Part shown: in pieces, positions 16,452-25,115 of the stretch | Layout: every line of letters begins with the position of its first letter | Numbering within the stretch: position 1 is the stretch's first letter | DNA from: a virus | Virus record (IMG/VR): IMGVR_UViG_3300025853_000340 | Location: 1-33,316 of that record | Length of the DNA stretch: 33,316 nucleotides | Strand: one strand, 5' to 3' | Translations under genes and position numbers: made by a program | The notes under the pieces: generated by a model | What the model was told of the DNA's origin: nothing | Seen by the model: the letters and a program-made list of their open reading frames with translations, nothing else | Databases searched by the model: none

Positions 16452-16688
16452 ATGGAAGCATGGAACGTAAAAACATTTGTAGACATTAAACAAGCAATCG
16501 CAACAGGTAAAACAGTTAGTATTATCTTACATGAGAATATCGCTAGTTACGGAAGAGTAACTTCAGAAAACGCTCATAAAGTTACACAAGTTAGAACCTG
16601 TAGAAACCCAAATGAAGTTGAAGTAGAACTCGATAATAGAGGAACTTTTATTCCAATCGGAGAAAATGACCTCATTCTGATAAAATAG
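16452..16688 (+). CDS. Small plus-strand protein (78 aa), unknown
   Basis: M-E-A-W-N-V-K-T-F-V-D-I-K-Q-A-I; short beta-like stretches (T-V-S-I-I-L-H, V-E-V-E-L-D-N-R-G-T-F-I-P-I) suggest a small barrel-like fold. It is divergent from 16125-16352 and convergent with the sheath-like gene, whose end it overlaps by 17 bp. The upstream sequence is very AT-rich with no clear -35 box. No family is recognised. Confidence 0.6.
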   Translation: MEAWNVKTFVDIKQAIATGKTVSIILHENIASYGRVTSENAHKVTQVRTCRNPNEVEVELDNRGTFIPIGENDLILIK

Positions 16689-17235
16689 TTTGCTTCTCTT
16701 TGTAGTTCTTTATTTTTAGTTTACGCTTTGCTACCTTTATATCTAAAGGATAACACGGTTGTAATCCTGATATTCTGATAAATAATACGCCGGATAGCTC
16801 GTCGTAGGTAAAATCTTTTATGAATCTTTTAACTCTAAGCGTTTTACATTCCTCAACCACATCTCCCACAAAATTTTCCAAATGCTGTAATATTTTATAT
16901 TCATTTATTCTATCCATTTTGTCATATGGAGAACGATGTAATATATTTCCAAAAATAACAAATCCACATCCAACATCATATAAAATAGGATTTATACGAT
17001 TATTATACAATTCATCGCGAACACGCATAGTCAACAAACTATCTTTGGGAATTGAGTTAATTAATTTTCCACGATTAAATCCGGCAATAGGAAAAAATGA
17101 ATCACTACAAACCTTCTCGACAATTTCATCTTTTAATTCTTGAGAAGCATCATTCGTTAAATAAAAATACGCACCCCAAGGATCGCTCGGTTTTAACTTC
17201 TTTTTGTCAGTAAAATATACGGGAATATTATACAT
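16672..17235 (-). CDS. Tail-sheath C-terminal-domain-like protein (187 aa)
   Basis: The part from F-F-P-I-A-G-F-N-R-G-K-L through R-D-E-L-Y-N-N-R-I-N-P-I-L-Y, V-I-F-G-N and D-R-I-N matches the C-terminal domain of contractile tail sheaths (A-G-x-x-R-G, then R-D-x-L-Y-x-x-x-I-N-P-I, then V-x-F-G, then D-R-I-N). Full sheaths are about 400-700 residues, so this is a stand-alone domain. The start is ATG 17235, because the GTG at 17250 lies inside the -10 box. It has a consensus sigma70 promoter with no leader, which is odd for a structural gene. It may be a sheath paralogue, an inhibitor or a remnant. The likeness is clear to my eye but was not tested by search. Confidence 0.6.
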   Translation of the reverse strand: MYNIPVYFTDKKKLKPSDPWGAYFYLTNDASQELKDEIVEKVCSDSFFPIAGFNRGKLINSIPKDSLLTMRVRDELYNNRINPILYDVGCGFVIFGNILHRSPYDKMDRINEYKILQHLENFVGDVVEECKTLRVKRFIKDFTYDELSGVLFIRISGLQPCYPLDIKVAKRKLKIKNYKEKQTILSE

Positions 17236-17241
17236 ACCAGT

Positions 17242-17270
17242 ATTATACACTTTAGTATAATATTTGTCAA
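17242..17270 (-). promoter_or_regulatory. Consensus sigma70 promoter, leaderless (sheath-like gene)
   Basis: TTGACA, 17-nt spacer, TATAAT, then 6 nt (ACTGGT) to ATG 17235. The first T of the -35 box is exactly 35 nt before the A of the ATG, so the predicted mRNA start is the start codon. Confidence 0.85.
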
Positions 17271-17350: not shown

Positions 17351-19063
17351 CTAAATAGTTTGTTCATACATCTCACGAGCTTTTGTGTAGAATTCAACCA
17401 ATTCAGAATAGTCAATCTGTTTTCCTCTGAATAAAAATGATCCCAATGTATAAATTAAAAATGCAGGTGTTCCTCTTGCAATTTTACTACGAATCTTAGC
17501 AAGATTAGCAGTTCTTAATGCTTTCAACATATCACTTGGGTTGTTATTAACAGATCCTTTGTCACCAATCTTACGACGGTCAAATTCAGGAAAATATTTG
17601 TCAATGGATATCTCAACCTGTTTTTGATTTTCCTTTTCCTTTTCATTCGCTAACTCTTTGGGGTCTTTGTATGTAGACAATTGTTTTTCTAAATTAGAAC
17701 GTTCATGTTTCAAGGCATTCCAAGTTTCACGATCATTTACAGACTGTGGATCTCCGCCAGTAAACATACGATCATTCATCTCCAATGACTTCATTCTATT
17801 GGAAATAGCATCAATCTTAGAATTAATATCATCGTCGGAATTCTCATTGACAACAGAATCTTCGCTTAAATAATCATTCTTTCCAGGTTTACGATCGTCT
17901 TTTTTAGTCCACATCGGTTTTACTCCAGTAGCACCCTTGTGCTTATTTAACCCACGTTTATCACCACGAAACTTTGCTCCTTTGATCGGAACGTTAACGG
18001 GATTTCCACTAGGATCTAAAGGCAAACCGTCTTCAGAATAATCTGGACCATCAGGATTATCAATATAATCTTCTTTATAACGACGTTCCATTTCATCATC
18101 AGCCATATAATCCCACAGATCAGGACGGTTAGCTAGATTTTGTTCATTCAATATTTCAGAAATACTTTCTTTTATTATTTTTTTTAATTCTGATTTTTTC
18201 ATAGTTTTATTCTCTTCTAAAGCAGGTCTGGCTGATTTCATTTGAACAACTGTATCATAACCAGCCTTTGATGATAGTTCCATTTCATTTTCACTACCGG
18301 TCTTTCTATTAAAAACATTTTGAACTAACATACGTATGCGATCAACGTTTATATCAGCTCCTTTTTGTTTATATTTATTCACAATGTCTTTTAATTTTTT
18401 ACTCAATTTAATACGTTCCGTCTTTGATGCTCCATGACTTAATTGAGAAATTAACATTGAAATTTCCATTCGTGCTTGTTTGGTTATATCATCAGTATCG
18501 GAATAACCGGCGGAAAAATAATCAATCGATGGATCGTATTGATGTATATCAACCAATTTATAATTTCCCTCTGCTTCATCATATAAATCCAATTTGTAAT
18601 TTGAAATATCAATTCCCACCGAAGAAAATAATTTTGACATCAACGGAACATCATATGTTTTTTCTGTTATATATTCCCAACTAGAAATTATCTTCTTGTC
18701 AAACCATATACGACCAGTTACATCACCATATGATCTAAAATTGTCAAGGTTTTCTTCATCCGATGATGATATATTCAATCTATTATTGATTTTACGTAAT
18801 ACTTCATCAGACATTGTATTAACAAGAATACCCAATCCTTTTAATTCATCAACTGATTTTGATGCTCTATTAACTAATTTTTTTAATATGTCATAATGTG
18901 TTAGTTTTTGCTTATAACCAACAATAATAAACGAATCAATTATTATAAATGGTCTAGCATCTTTATCATCCCAATCACCAACACCCACGATATTATAACC
19001 GCCCGTGTCAGCCACGACTTCATCAGGACTTTCAATTAATAAATCTGCTAACTTCAATTTCAT
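17351..19063 (-). CDS. Two-part protein of unknown function (570 aa)
   Basis: Residues 1-290 are paralogous to 19464-20312: L-K-L-A-D-L-L, D-A-R-P-F-I-I-I, T-G-R-I-W, S-H-G-A-S-K and A-G-Y-D-T-V-V-Q-M-K-S-A in the same order. The second half begins near residue 292 with M-K-K-S-E-L-K-K-I-I, a segment typical of the start of some phage virion proteins, and is hydrophilic with a coiled-coil-like part (about 430-490). The gene therefore looks like a fusion of two formerly separate genes. TATTTATA lies 5 nt before the ATG. A structural role is only a guess from position. Confidence 0.7.
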   Translation of the reverse strand: MKLKLADLLIESPDEVVADTGGYNIVGVGDWDDKDARPFIIIDSFIIVGYKQKLTHYDILKKLVNRASKSVDELKGLGILVNTMSDEVLRKINNRLNISSSDEENLDNFRSYGDVTGRIWFDKKIISSWEYITEKTYDVPLMSKLFSSVGIDISNYKLDLYDEAEGNYKLVDIHQYDPSIDYFSAGYSDTDDITKQARMEISMLISQLSHGASKTERIKLSKKLKDIVNKYKQKGADINVDRIRMLVQNVFNRKTGSENEMELSSKAGYDTVVQMKSARPALEENKTMKKSELKKIIKESISEILNEQNLANRPDLWDYMADDEMERRYKEDYIDNPDGPDYSEDGLPLDPSGNPVNVPIKGAKFRGDKRGLNKHKGATGVKPMWTKKDDRKPGKNDYLSEDSVVNENSDDDINSKIDAISNRMKSLEMNDRMFTGGDPQSVNDRETWNALKHERSNLEKQLSTYKDPKELANEKEKENQKQVEISIDKYFPEFDRRKIGDKGSVNNNPSDMLKALRTANLAKIRSKIARGTPAFLIYTLGSFLFRGKQIDYSELVEFYTKAREMYEQTI

Positions 19064-19080
19064 ATCTATATAAATATTCT

Positions 19081-19464
19081 TTAATTTAAAAACACATTCA
19101 TGTCATCATATTGATCAGGCATATTAAATCTAAACGCTTGCCCAAATTGATTTATCATCGCTTTGTTATTATACTCGATGTTTACCACAAAATTGCGGTT
19201 CTCCATCAATCGCTCAAATATAATATCACGCAACATATGCTTCTTGCCAACAATAGCATCATGTTTGCCTCGTATGTTCAATTGACCAAAATGATTCTGT
19301 ATGTGTATATACCCTGTCTCGTAAGGTATATCATGAACCTCTGCCTCATTAATCGGCTCACGACGAAATAATGTAGAAAAATTCTGTTTCATATAAGCAT
19401 AATGTCCATTAGGAGGACAATTTATTATTTGACCCCGTGGGTTTATCCAAAATGTTTGATTCAT
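19081..19464 (-). CDS. Protein of unknown function (127 aa)
   Basis: M-N-Q-T-F-W-I-N-P-R-G; rich in Asn, Phe and Arg with no low-complexity part. The start ATG overlaps the stop of 19464-20312 (TAATG), so the two are coupled. It sits between the two paralogues 17351-19063 and 19464-20312. No family is recognised. Confidence 0.65.
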   Translation of the reverse strand: MNQTFWINPRGQIINCPPNGHYAYMKQNFSTLFRREPINEAEVHDIPYETGYIHIQNHFGQLNIRGKHDAIVGKKHMLRDIIFERLMENRNFVVNIEYNNKAMINQFGQAFRFNMPDQYDDMNVFLN

Positions 19465-20312
19465 TATATTAAATCCTTTAAATTTATTTTATTTTCTTCT
19501 AAAAATGGCATCGCTGATTTTTGCTGTGCCACTGTATCATACCCAGCCTTTTTAGCTCTCTTCATTTCTTCTTCACTTCCCGTCCAACGGTTCAAAGCAT
19601 CTTTTACAAAATCTTCAATCTTGCCAAAATCTATATCCAATGAACTTTTACGAGTGCTGTCAATGATATTCTTTATCTTTCCAGCAATCTTCATCTTCTC
19701 CGACTTAGAAGCACCATGACTCAATTGCTTAACCAAATCAACAATCTCAGACTTAACTTTCTTCTCAACAGGATCAACGTCTTCACTTCCACCAAATTCA
19801 TTCCAAGGAATCATTTGATATAAATATTGCCATTCATCAACATGATATTCAGATAAATCAATGCCAGCAGATTTAAATGCTTTTTCCACATGTGAATAAT
19901 GCTTTTTAATGTCATCGTTGTCATCCCAAAATGATATAACACCACGATCTTTCCATATACGACCATGAACATCTCCCATAAGACGCCCAGCCTCAATACC
20001 ATACTTTTTATAAGATTCATTCATTTCGGAAGCTATATCAAGATCAATGTTGCCAAATATATCAGCTCCATTCTTGTTCAATACAATCTTAAACGCCTGA
20101 TTCTTCTTGTCTCCAGAATATAATTTGCTTTTCTTGAACGCTCTTGAAACGTTAACCGCAATATCTCCATGAGTAATTCCATTAGTCATCCCAATAATTA
20201 ACATGCTTCCAGCTAAAACAAAAGGTCTAGCATCATGATCATCATATTCAAACTCTTCCGGTCCTGAATCAGCGTAATCGGGATCTTCACTCAATAAATC
20301 TTTTAATTTCAT
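19464..20312 (-). CDS. Paralogue of the N-terminal half of 17351-19063 (282 aa)
   Basis: M-K-L-K-D-L-L-S-E-D-P, then D-D-H-D-A-R-P-F-V-L, H-G-R-I-W-K-D, Q-L-S-H-G-A-S-K-S-E-K-M-K, and A-K-K-A-G-Y-D-T-V-A-Q-Q-K-S-A near the end. These match the first 290 residues of 17351-19063 in order and spacing. The protein is acidic at the start and helical later. The ATG overlaps the stop of the 53-residue gene upstream (ATGA). The function is unknown. Confidence 0.7.
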   Translation of the reverse strand: MKLKDLLSEDPDYADSGPEEFEYDDHDARPFVLAGSMLIIGMTNGITHGDIAVNVSRAFKKSKLYSGDKKNQAFKIVLNKNGADIFGNIDLDIASEMNESYKKYGIEAGRLMGDVHGRIWKDRGVISFWDDNDDIKKHYSHVEKAFKSAGIDLSEYHVDEWQYLYQMIPWNEFGGSEDVDPVEKKVKSEIVDLVKQLSHGASKSEKMKIAGKIKNIIDSTRKSSLDIDFGKIEDFVKDALNRWTGSEEEMKRAKKAGYDTVAQQKSAMPFLEENKINLKDLI

Positions 20313-21117: not shown

Positions 21118-21487
21118 TCAAGAAAATATTCGAGCAAATAACTCATACAATGCACCAACATACCCAACATATCCATTAACAATCAACGAAGTTAACATTC
21201 CACATAATCTATCCAACATAACTTTATATCCCCAATCCATCACTATATACTTCATGCCGCATAATATATCCAACATAACTTTATATCCCCAATCCATCAC
21301 TATATACTTCATGCCGCATAATATATCCCAACTTAGGAATTATATCACGCGACATTATATATTCTAAAAATAACTTTTCAAGAAAATTACAACCAGACAA
21401 CCCACCACCATCCACCATAACATCACATTGTATGTTATACTCAACAACTTCATAATCAGTTTTATGGCGTTTGTGCTTTATTTTCAT
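21118..21487 (-). pseudogene. Repeat-containing small protein gene with a +1 frameshift
   Basis: The reading frame from ATG 21487 (M-K-I-K-H-K-R-H-K-T-D-Y) enters a 57-bp tandem repeat and is thrown out of frame by one extra C in the run at 21327-21329, stopping at 21281. The other repeat copy lacks this base. Without it the frame runs on through two copies of a 19-residue unit (M-K-Y-I-V-M-D-W-G-Y-K-V-M-L-D-I-L-C-G) to a stop at 21118, giving about 123 residues. The plus strand is also open here, but the minus-strand operon context favours this reading. Function unknown. Confidence 0.5.
21217..21331. repeat. 57-bp tandem repeat, two copies plus a partial one
   Basis: Copies span 21217-21273 and 21274-21331. 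The second has one extra C and is otherwise identical. Degenerate further sequence lies to the left (about 21200-21216). 57 bp is 19 codons, so copy number can change without shifting the frame. Confidence 0.9.
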
Positions 21488-21510: not shown

Positions 21511-21780
21511 TTATTTAATAGAATTTTTGTATTTTTTTATTTTATGCTTTCGCAACGCGTTCTTGAATTCATCACTAACAAATACCTTGTTACGTGACGT
21601 CGCTAAACCATCGTTTAACCAAAAACCATCCCTATCAGCCCAAGCAGAAAAATATAACTCACCAGATGATACAAAATATAAATGACGCACATTATCATCA
21701 ACCATCAAAAAATCAAATGTTATATGCTCAGTGTTGCCATGCTTTAATTTGTGATTAACTAATACATCCTGTTTTTTCAT
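21511..21780 (-). CDS. Shared-tail cassette protein 8 (89 aa)
   Basis: Last gene of the array. The body has L-Y-F-V-S-S-G-E-L-Y-F-S-A-W-A-D-R-D-G-F-W, an aromatic acidic segment like its neighbours, and it ends E-F-K-N-A-L-R-K-H-K-I-K-K-Y-K-N-S-I-K. Its ATG overlaps the upstream stop by 4 nt. A 23-nt gap follows before the next, repeat-containing gene. The family is not recognised; the shared C-terminal tail is what ties it to the array. Confidence 0.7.
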   Translation of the reverse strand: MKKQDVLVNHKLKHGNTEHITFDFLMVDDNVRHLYFVSSGELYFSAWADRDGFWLNDGLATSRNKVFVSDEFKNALRKHKIKKYKNSIK

Positions 21781-22064
21781 GTTCTATTGTTTTTGTATTT
21801 TCTTATCTTATATAAACGAAGCGCATGTCTAAACGAGCTATCAACTAAAGCATCATTCTTAGTATATCCACCGTCTTCTTCATACGTATGCCAATCATCC
21901 CCTTCTTCATCTACCCAATAATATAATAATAAATCTAAACTTGGATAATATATGTTTTTATATTCACTGCCATCCAATACACTATCAAATATAAAATAAT
22001 CAGCGTCAGGAAATATACAACGTTCTCCAGAATAGTCTAAATAATATTCATCGTTTTCTTTCAT
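21777..22064 (-). CDS. Shared-tail cassette protein 7 (95 aa)
   Basis: Starts M-K-E-N-D-E-Y-Y-L-D-Y, the same as cassette 6, then F-P-D-A-D-Y-F, S-L-D-L-L-L-Y-Y-W-V-D, D-W-H-T-Y-E-E-D, and ends A-L-R-L-Y-K-I-R-K-Y-K-N-N-R-T. The two are recent duplicates at both protein and DNA level. The start lies within the tail codons of cassette 6 (17-nt overlap), and its own stop overlaps the next ATG. Acidic body, basic tail. Function unknown. Confidence 0.75.
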   Translation of the reverse strand: MKENDEYYLDYSGERCIFPDADYFIFDSVLDGSEYKNIYYPSLDLLLYYWVDEEGDDWHTYEEDGGYTKNDALVDSSFRHALRLYKIRKYKNNRT

Positions 22065-22326
22065 TATACTTTATTATTTTATGCTTTCTTAACGCTAGTT
22101 TGTAAGGTTCACTGTTTAAAACTTCTTCTTTCGTTTTTCCATGATCTTCTTCATACGTACGCCAATCATCATCGTCTTCAACAATATAATATAATAATAA
22201 ATCTAAACTTGAATAATAACGATTTTGACATTTATCAAAAATCGTGTAAAATTCAAAATACTCAACATCAGGAAAATCACATTCGTTACCATCATAATCT
22301 AAATAATATTCATCGTTTTCTTTCAT
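22048..22326 (-). CDS. Shared-tail cassette protein 6 (92 aa)
   Basis: M-K-E-N-D-E-Y-Y-L-D-Y-D, F-P-D-V-E-Y-F-E-F, S-L-D-L-L-L-Y-Y-I-V, D-W-R-T-Y-E-E-D-H-G-K-T-K-E-E, ending A-L-R-K-H-K-I-I-K-Y-N-E-R-K-R. It is the closest relative of cassette 7. The initiation sequence AAGTATAATGAAA lies inside the codons K-Y-N-E of cassette 5, giving a 17-nt overlap. Confidence 0.75.
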   Translation of the reverse strand: MKENDEYYLDYDGNECDFPDVEYFEFYTIFDKCQNRYYSSLDLLLYYIVEDDDDWRTYEEDHGKTKEEVLNSEPYKLALRKHKIIKYNERKR

Positions 22327-22534
22327 TATACTTTCTTATTTTGTTCTTTCTATCATACTCTAACAAAGCAGAATTATAATTAGGACAATCTAAATATACC
22401 AAACTATTTGTATAATTCCACCAAGGCACATGATACTGAATCATAGGCCAATTGTCACCATCGTTCCAACACATGTCTCGCTTACGAAAAGAACAATGCC
22501 ATCTTATACTATCTTCACTCGGCAACTTTTTCAT
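22310..22534 (-). CDS. Shared-tail cassette protein 5 (74 aa)
   Basis: The body is rich in Trp, Cys and Asn (R-W-H-C-S-F-R-K-R-D-M-C-W, V-P-W-W-N-Y) and unlike the other members, but it ends D-R-K-N-K-I-R-K-Y-N-E-R-K-R, the same tail. It starts inside the tail of cassette 4 (20-nt overlap). Different bodies with one constant tail suggest modular exchange. Confidence 0.7.
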   Translation of the reverse strand: MKKLPSEDSIRWHCSFRKRDMCWNDGDNWPMIQYHVPWWNYTNSLVYLDCPNYNSALLEYDRKNKIRKYNERKR

Positions 22535-22778
22535 TATACTTTCTTATTTTATGCTTTCTCATAGCAACCTTAAATTCAGTTGACTTTAAAATATTATCTA
22601 TGTGATGCGGAGATTCTAATTCAAATTTACACAATTCATTTTCCCTCCAAACAAACAAATTATCATATACAAAATATCTTTGATAATAATCATCATACAT
22701 AAAATCAATATACTCTGTTGTAGGCATCTTATAATACCTAGCATGAAAAGGATCATAATATTCTTTTTCTGTATTCAT
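22515..22778 (-). CDS. Shared-tail cassette protein 4 (87 aa)
   Basis: M-N-T-E-K-E-Y-Y-D-P-F, then Y-F-V-Y-D-N-L-F-V-W-R-E-N-E-L, ending E-F-K-V-A-M-R-K-H-K-I-R-K-Y-N-E-K-V-A-E. The start overlaps the end of cassette 3 by 26 nt. No Shine-Dalgarno; the A-rich tail codons of the previous gene stand in front of the ATG. Confidence 0.7.
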   Translation of the reverse strand: MNTEKEYYDPFHARYYKMPTTEYIDFMYDDYYQRYFVYDNLFVWRENELCKFELESPHHIDNILKSTEFKVAMRKHKIRKYNEKVAE

Positions 22779-23004
22779 TTATTTTTCTTTTACGAATGTA
22801 ATTTTTATATTCTGCTGTTTGTTTTAAACGATCATACGTCTTAGATTGTGCTTCTATCCACATACAGTCGTGTGAATTGAAATATACAAAATGCCCACAA
22901 TCCAAATAAAGAAACAAATCGTTTTCTACATTGAATAACGCATCTCCAATGCCATTCTTTATAATCTCGTTTTTATTAGATAAATACTGATCAATTGTTG
23001 CCAT
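22753..23004 (-). CDS. Shared-tail cassette protein 3 (83 aa)
   Basis: M-A-T-I-D-Q-Y-L-S-N-K, then D-L-F-L-Y-L-D-C-G-H-F-V-Y-F, W-I-E-A-Q-S-K-T-Y-D-R-L, ending E-Y-K-N-Y-I-R-K-R-K-I-N-E-Y-R-K-R-I-L, a diverged form of the tail. It follows cassette 2 after a 16-nt gap and overlaps cassette 4 by 26 nt. Confidence 0.7.
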   Translation of the reverse strand: MATIDQYLSNKNEIIKNGIGDALFNVENDLFLYLDCGHFVYFNSHDCMWIEAQSKTYDRLKQTAEYKNYIRKRKINEYRKRIL

Positions 23005-23020
23005 TTTTATACTTTGTATT

Positions 23021-23236
23021 TCATGGTGTTTTGCTTTTTTTGTAATTTACAATTCTTAATGTGCGCAAACATTCTATCTCATGATCACCAACCCAAGTAA
23101 TATCATCAATGTCTGAAATAAATACTCGATATAGCCAACCATTATCATCAACTACTTTTGTAATTACACCATGAAGACCGGCATGGCGTCCGTCTTTAAC
23201 TATAACCTTTTGATTTACTTTGTATTTGTGTTTCAT
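23021..23236 (-). CDS. Cassette 2, KOW-like small protein (71 aa)
   Basis: Y-K-V-N-Q-K-V-I-V-K-D-G-R-H-A-G-L-H-G-V-I-T-K-V is typical of a KOW motif (RNA- or protein-binding small barrel). The end, T-L-R-I-V-N-Y-K-K-S-K-T-P, is a short, weak version of the array tail. It begins in an ATGA overlap with cassette 1. The KOW call is supported by the V-x-G-x-x-G-x-x-G-x-V pattern, but the family was not checked. Confidence 0.65.
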   Translation of the reverse strand: MKHKYKVNQKVIVKDGRHAGLHGVITKVVDDNGWLYRVFISDIDDITWVGDHEIECLRTLRIVNYKKSKTP

Positions 23237-23463
23237 GCCGATTTCCTGTTTTTATATTGGTTTATTTTGTGTGTCCTCATAGCGTCTTTAAATTCAATTT
23301 GATCACGAATATATTCGTAACTAAGACTCGATTCTTTTTCCCAACCATTATATCCCGTGTCACGATAAAATGTTTTTCGTTTTAGATGATATCCATATTT
23401 AATTTTTCCTGAAGACCATTTCCAATCACAAGTAAATGTTATAAAATCATTATTTGTTTTCAT
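23233..23463 (-). CDS. Shared-tail cassette protein 1, first gene of array (76 aa)
   Basis: The start ATG at 23463 (M-K-T-N-N-D-F) was chosen because the GTG at 23481 lies upstream of the predicted transcription start. The body has W-K-W-S-S-G-K-I-K-Y-G-Y and W-E-K-E-S-S-L-S-Y-E-Y, ending E-F-K-D-A-M-R-T-H-K-I-N-Q-Y-K-N-R-K-S-A. A consensus promoter with no leader precedes it and should drive the whole array. Confidence 0.7.
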   Translation of the reverse strand: MKTNNDFITFTCDWKWSSGKIKYGYHLKRKTFYRDTGYNGWEKESSLSYEYIRDQIEFKDAMRTHKINQYKNRKSA

Positions 23464-23469
23464 ATACAC

Positions 23470-23498
23470 AATATACCGCACTTTTTATAAAAAGTCAA
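23470..23498 (-). promoter_or_regulatory. Sigma70 promoter, leaderless, for the cassette array
   Basis: TTGACT, 17-nt spacer, TATATT, 6 nt (GTGTAT), ATG 23463. The first base of the -35 box is exactly 35 nt from the A of the ATG. Confidence 0.85.
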
Positions 23499-25086: not shown

Positions 25087-25115
25087 ACTATAGATTACCG
25101 AGCGGGAGTTGTCAA
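25087..25115 (-). promoter_or_regulatory. Early promoter copy 1 for 24804-25049
   Basis: TTGACA, 17-nt spacer (contains CCCGCTCGG), TATAGT, leader with CATAATCAAC and TAACCACTAAA. Nearly identical to 25500-25528 and 26430-26458. It also encodes the last residues of 25095-25463 (T-T-P-A-R). Confidence 0.9.

Follow-up and report, generated by a model that had tools for sequence, protein, structure and literature searches.

The DNA analysed here, called the window below, is the 33,316-base IMG/VR record IMGVR_UViG_3300025853_000340 and stems from a T4-like phage that is uncultured and has no close relatives. The PhoH protein of this phage reached at most about 38% identity with cyanophage PhoH among the best listed phage records, and 46% in IMG/VR. 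On the minus strand, from 23463 down to 21511, eight small open reading frames (ORFs) are tightly packed. They encode proteins of 71-95 residues, as a preliminary description of the sequence had stated, and all eight end in a common basic tail. The genes are numbered 8 to 1 in transcription order, gene 8 being the first and gene 1 the last:

23470 to 23498, minus strand: array promoter, sigma-70-like, TTGACT-17-TATATT, 10 of 12 consensus matches
23233 to 23463, minus strand: gene 8, first transcribed, 76 residues, tail EFKDAMRTHKINQYKNRKSA
23021 to 23236, minus strand: gene 7, 71 residues, KOW domain body, weak tail CLRTLRIVNYKKSKTP
22753 to 23004, minus strand: gene 6, 83 residues, tail EYKNYIRKRKINEYRKRIL
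22515 to 22778, minus strand: gene 5, 87 residues, tail EFKVAMRKHKIRKYNEKVAE
22310 to 22534, minus strand: gene 4, 74 residues, Trp/Cys-rich body, tail DRKNKIRKYNERKR
22048 to 22326, minus strand: gene 3, 92 residues, acidic body (net charge -17) like that of gene 2, tail like those of genes 4 and 5
21777 to 22064, minus strand: gene 2, 95 residues, acidic body (net charge -17), tail FRHALRLYKIRKYKNNRT
21511 to 21780, minus strand: gene 1, last, 89 residues, tail EFKNALRKHKIKKYKNSIK

The ATG at 23463 is the likely start of gene 8, since the GTG at 23481 that would lengthen the gene falls within the promoter spacer.

The motif R-x2-[KR]-I-x2-Y was found in 8/8 array proteins, where it ends 5-6 residues before the stop and is usually preceded by [FY]-[KR]-x-A-[LM]. 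All tails were basic, with net charges of +3 to +7. Each tail was scored with a profile built on the seven remaining tails, against 12,862 background segments of 18 residues taken from the rest of the window. The tails of genes 1, 2, 3, 5 and 8 outscored every background segment, while those of genes 4 and 6 were each equalled by exactly one. The tail of gene 7 was weak in this comparison (4 background segments as high; 1/2,000 shuffles). Despite this score we take it as real, because the motif stands at the fixed position. The preliminary description had counted seven tails and a weak eighth. The shared tail is confirmed and is stronger than stated there, while the count has to be corrected to eight, as gene 7 keeps the motif.

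A survey for the motif within 12 residues of the C-terminus covered the window, a second phage described below and 36 PhoH-anchored T4-like loci. The 36 loci (at most 46% identical) carried no tails. Outside the array the motif was seen near a C-terminus only in both tail copies of the second phage, in one spurious frame and in one further protein of the window, whose near-C-terminal end also scored higher in the profile comparison than any other stretch outside the array:

16672 to 17250, minus strand: truncated tail-sheath-derived protein, probable ninth tail bearer, 192 residues, ending in KVAKRKLKIKNYKEKQTILSE

In this sheath-like protein about 85-125 residues are homologous to the C-terminal region of tail sheaths (2e-8 to the DSL-LC02 sheath), and a real sheath continues for some 60 residues beyond the point where it ends in the tail-like stretch. 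It is thus not a full-length sheath (gp18) with the conserved C-terminal domain. Judging from the match, the tail motif probably recurs here. A TTGACA-17-TATAAT promoter match lies at the start of the gene, whose product may perhaps be a sheath fragment made early.

The second phage was detected in IMG/VR by searching for DNA that could encode A-[LM]-R-K-H-K-I-x-x-Y. It is represented by two records of one uncultured phage, L004 and L006, which differ at one base over 2 kb. One of its genes encodes a 59-residue protein with a clear tail, ending in EFKNALRKHKIKQYKIQ (L006:10908-11087), and is followed by a short gene whose product has an N-terminus like a lipoprotein signal. A second tail copy, KEALRKHKIKQYRESRD, directly follows a 141-residue ORF that is read in a different frame, and its DNA overlaps the GTG at which an HNH endonuclease gene (Pfam HNH, 32.7 bits) begins. 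Since only 37 residues are open in its frame, this copy is, as far as the reading frame tells, a tail without a proper body, either a relic or a mini-protein. The HNH gene thus sits between two near-identical tail copies (L006:10127-11278, plus strand; 29/30 nt by eye), with its GTG start within the first of them.

Searches for further relatives had little yield. Gene 5, alignment A2 and the neighbouring 282-residue protein found no relatives in IMG/VR. Translated searches (tblastn) with genes 1 and 5, the proteins of the second phage and the tail consensus gave chance-level matches or none among 50,697 phage records. Relaxed tail DNA patterns returned only L004 and L006 from IMG/VR, apart from chance matches in unrelated frames, and the tail pattern matched 14 times in 85k prokaryote genomes, about the number expected by chance, none of the matches ending a small gene in a related setting. 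In the collections searched the tail is carried by only two phage lineages. A limited literature search found no description of varied small phage proteins with a constant tail at the C-terminus, which is weak evidence of novelty.

The comparison between the two phages allowed us to ask at which level the tail is conserved. Between gene 1 and the 59-residue protein 13/14 core tail residues were identical, with a proportion of synonymous differences (pS) of ~1 and of nonsynonymous differences (pN) of 0.03. Over a slightly longer stretch the same codon was used at 7/14 shared residues, where 8.0 were expected. Since the residues were kept while codon agreement was no better than chance, these sequences indicate that the tail is ancient and that selection on the protein has maintained it across the two phages. 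This bears on a very improbable alternative, in which the tail would be the by-product of a copied DNA or RNA element (the ribosome site of the next gene, its start, or a -10-like TATAAT) that reads as ALRKHKIRKYN. Tail DNA indeed overlaps or abuts the next start at most junctions, genes 3-5 have nearly the same tail DNA (AGAAAG...TATAATG), and the second phage has the same arrangement ahead of its HNH gene. Synonymous sites, however, were saturated and yet the residues kept, across most of the array as well as between the phages. The position of the next start relative to the tail also varied, from 5 nt ahead of the codon for Tyr (gene 6 to gene 5) to past the stop (gene 7 to gene 6), which argues against a mere ribosome-site by-product, and gene 1, the last of the array, has a full tail though the next start lies 23 nt beyond its stop. 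Codon saturation and variable start position largely refute this explanation.

Whereas the tails can be aligned, the bodies cannot be aligned beyond chance, with the exception of genes 2 and 3. These two were the only ones related by body sequence (Z 24.8); the other 35 pairs, among which we included the second phage's protein, did not exceed 3.2. They are the recent duplicates noticed in the preliminary description, which also correctly recognised a Trp/Cys-rich member (gene 4) and a KOW-like one. The latter is gene 7, which passes the Pfam cut-off for KOW (PF00467, 24.4 vs 22.3 bits, residues 8-40). It is the only one of the eight with a likeness to KOW/SH3-like proteins, and its tail comes after the KOW domain. 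For genes 1-6 and 8 no Pfam, PHROG or PADLOC family was significant or above its curated cut-off, and the PADLOC scan gave only a weak match to gene 7 (0.014). Apart from KOW, no homology of the bodies to named Pfam or PHROG families was detected. Body charges varied from -17 to +3, genes 2 and 3 being very acidic and the others not.

The preliminary description had named membership of all bodies in one ordinary family as an outcome that would speak against its proposal. At the sequence level this is not what we found, with only genes 2 and 3 related and gene 7 a KOW protein. A less ordinary version is a tentative but real possibility: most of the array may be one fast-diverging family of a beta-meander followed by a C-terminal helix, the tail being its best-conserved structural element, a helix packed on the sheet and no separate handle, and gene 7 and the sheath-like gene being exceptions or chance. 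What keeps it alive is that two weak structure models share one plan. The AlphaFold2 model of gene 1 (seven-row alignment, pLDDT 54) and that of gene 8 (single sequence, pLDDT 64), obtained from different inputs, both show three strands and then a long C-terminal helix containing the tail, at residues 70-88 and 49-74, respectively. An aromatic/hydrophobic strand pattern can be made out by eye in several bodies, and mean pairwise body similarity is in slight excess (Z ~0.4). Besides the unalignable bodies and the KOW domain of gene 7, the one-family reading is opposed by the body-less tail in the second phage, the probable tail on the sheath fragment and, as described below, the different histories of tails and bodies in genes 2-5. 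Foldseek searches with the models gave nothing below E=0.001, and the tail profile found nothing in the Protein Data Bank (PDB). Going by the models, most bodies may share an ancestor.

The histories of tails and bodies could be separated within the array. In the duplicates, genes 2 and 3, body DNA was 75% identical and tail DNA 53% (Fisher p=0.0016), which departs from the general pattern, in which it is the tail that is kept best. Tail DNA of gene 3 was instead 91-94% identical to that of genes 4 and 5 over 33 nt, on unrelated bodies. In single-pair codon tests, uncorrected, pairs 3-4 and 4-5 used the same codons at 9/9 shared tail residues (4.9 expected, P=0.0024), as did the second phage's two tails at 10/11 (P=0.011). 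The pairs that stood out were array neighbours and the two tails of one phage. As alike tails sit on unrelated bodies (genes 3, 4 and 5) and alike bodies carry unlike tails (genes 2 and 3), tails and bodies have recombined within the array. From these alignments the simplest reading would be exchange at the tail joint, which in genes 3-5 extends through the ATG of the next gene (AGAAAGTATAATGAAA):

22524 to 22559, minus strand: tail/start joint from gene 5 to gene 4; its sequence AGAAAGCATAAAATAAGAAAGTATAATGAAAAAGTT codes for the tail and also contains AGAAAG, which resembles a ribosome site, a TATAAT and the ATG of the following gene
22316 to 22351, minus strand: tail/start joint from gene 4 to gene 3, a near-copy of the gene 5 to gene 4 joint
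22054 to 22089, minus strand: tail/start joint from gene 3 to gene 2, a near-copy of the gene 5 to gene 4 joint

The earlier proposal of a cassette growing by duplication and exchanging its bodies is supported by this discordance between genes 2 and 3 and by the tail DNA of genes 3-5. Around the same joints (22063-22092, 22325-22352 and 22533-22562, minus strand) TATAAT is accompanied by a -35-like hexamer 16-18 nt upstream, with 10/12 matches, and internal promoters inside the tails of genes 3-5 are possible.

Two known systems come close to this arrangement. The mobile promoter-stem-loop (PeSL) cassettes, whose original work is reportedly that of Arbiol (2010) and Comeau (2014), resemble the array in having short repeats at gene borders that allow small genes to be shuffled. 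Such shuffling in T4-like phages is summarised in PMC4503421. The array joints differ in that they code for protein, are conserved at that level and lack a terminator-like stem-loop, and the array has one strong promoter match. Terminator-like sites were absent inside the array, the only nearby ones lying at 23805-23784, 23682-23664 and 24818-24798, so that the joints do not form PeSL cassettes, with an early promoter and a terminator-like stem-loop at each border. In T4, small early anti-toxin genes with a counter-defence role (dmd-tifA) are amplified in tandem through microhomology, via short repeats of 6-10 bp (PMC9391042). Local tandem amplification by short-repeat recombination is common to both cases, but the T4 copies are identical and recent, whereas the bodies of the array have diverged beyond recognition and the tail was kept.

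Expression signals were in line with an early operon. The promoter is a consensus match and was not mapped; it is the single strong match ahead of the operon, in agreement with the preliminary description. Its -10 element ends 6 nt before the first ATG, which would make the transcript nearly leaderless. A TTGACTTTTTATAA block is common to this promoter and to that of the tail-bearing operon of the second phage. By its type the promoter points to early expression of the array. The small proteins that phages make early often serve host takeover or counter-defence. Furthermore, a TATTTATA motif that stands 5-7 nt before several starts of structural or large genes is absent ahead of the array.

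Both promoter observations would speak against a further explanation, which we regard as improbable: the tail could be a virion-packaging address, the C-terminal counterpart of the capsid targeting sequence of T4, on proteins that are loaded into the head and injected against host defences. The T4 internal proteins IPI, IPII and IPIII are diverse and have only the capsid targeting sequence in common, and the known ones counter host defences (PMC3012670, PMC9391042). The array proteins match them in size, and a short constant address on highly diverse small phage proteins is common to both. The constant part of the array, however, is C-terminal and basic, and it occurs in eight copies in one operon behind an early-type promoter. 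The N-termini of the array proteins differ except in the duplicates 2 and 3 and do not share a conserved capsid targeting sequence, a packaging-protease site was not recognised by eye, and no virion link was found for the array. In form the internal proteins are the known system nearest to the array, which, going by the position of the tag, is not a member of their group.

We favor the interpretation that the array is an early operon of small effectors with a common C-terminal docking helix, which grows by duplication and joint recombination, and put its probability at about 0.5. Each protein would consist of a short, mostly beta-rich body followed by the basic tail. In a helical tail the invariant R, K/R, I and Y (i, i+3, i+4, i+7) would form a single face for contact with a common partner, and F, A/L and H, from their spacing in the sequence, would form a second face that packs on the body. 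The targets of the bodies may differ and would most likely be host or defence proteins. The operon would gain members through tandem duplication and through recombination at its tail joints; as the joint DNA also holds the next ribosome site and start, a body could be swapped with frame, tail and next start kept. A tag recognised by a common partner had already been suggested in the preliminary description. To that suggestion our data add protein-level constraint and unlike bodies, for which a common docking partner would be the best explanation; with the partner itself they are compatible.

Several points weigh against this interpretation. The helix, the docking partner, the targets, the early timing and the anti-host or anti-defence role are what we infer, and the tail might belong to each protein's own fold rather than be a separate handle. 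The structure models are poor and without a Foldseek match. Body charges from -17 to +3 suggest no single type of target. The evidence for recombination comes from short stretches of 33-57 nt, and with only two lineages the turnover of tails is not traceable across many genomes. Less probable is a stronger form of the effector interpretation, an effector-cassette array in which a protein-conserved docking helix on unrelated bodies would bring the members to one machine of host or phage, the joints serving as recombination sites for the gain, loss and exchange of bodies, possibly aided by an HNH endonuclease such as the one whose gene is flanked by two tail copies in the second phage.

If the tail is indeed a docking handle, R-x2-[KR]-I-x2-Y placed 5-6 residues before the stop would be a tag for small phage effectors without homologues, and the tail could serve as bait for the common partner. 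A T4-like phage would then swap small early proteins in frame via joints that encode tail, ribosome site and next start, and the origin of new small early phage proteins would become testable in one operon.

Some further features of the window deserve mention. Scans for tRNA genes and Rfam families found nothing relevant. Just downstream of the array, a 57-bp tandem duplication (95% identical, 21196-21309) lies within a short ORF. The neighbouring proteins at 17351-19063 and 19464-20312 (minus strand), which have no family matches, look like paralogues and share DARPF[IV], QLSHGASK and AGYDTV.Q.KSA.P.LEENK, another sign of local duplication. The TATTTATA motif occurs in 11 copies in all, where 5.8 were expected, and is located upstream of 5626, 12570 and 19063 on the minus strand (TATAAATA on the plus strand). 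It may perhaps be the late promoter of this phage, nearly leaderless and in an orientation unlike that of T4's TATAAATA. Near-identical promoters were seen at 25115, 25528 and 26458 (minus strand), with TTGACA-ACTCCCGCTCGGTAATC-TATAGT (one with TATTAT) followed by ATTAACATAATCAA, and a leader ACATAATCAA is common to many other promoters on the minus strand.
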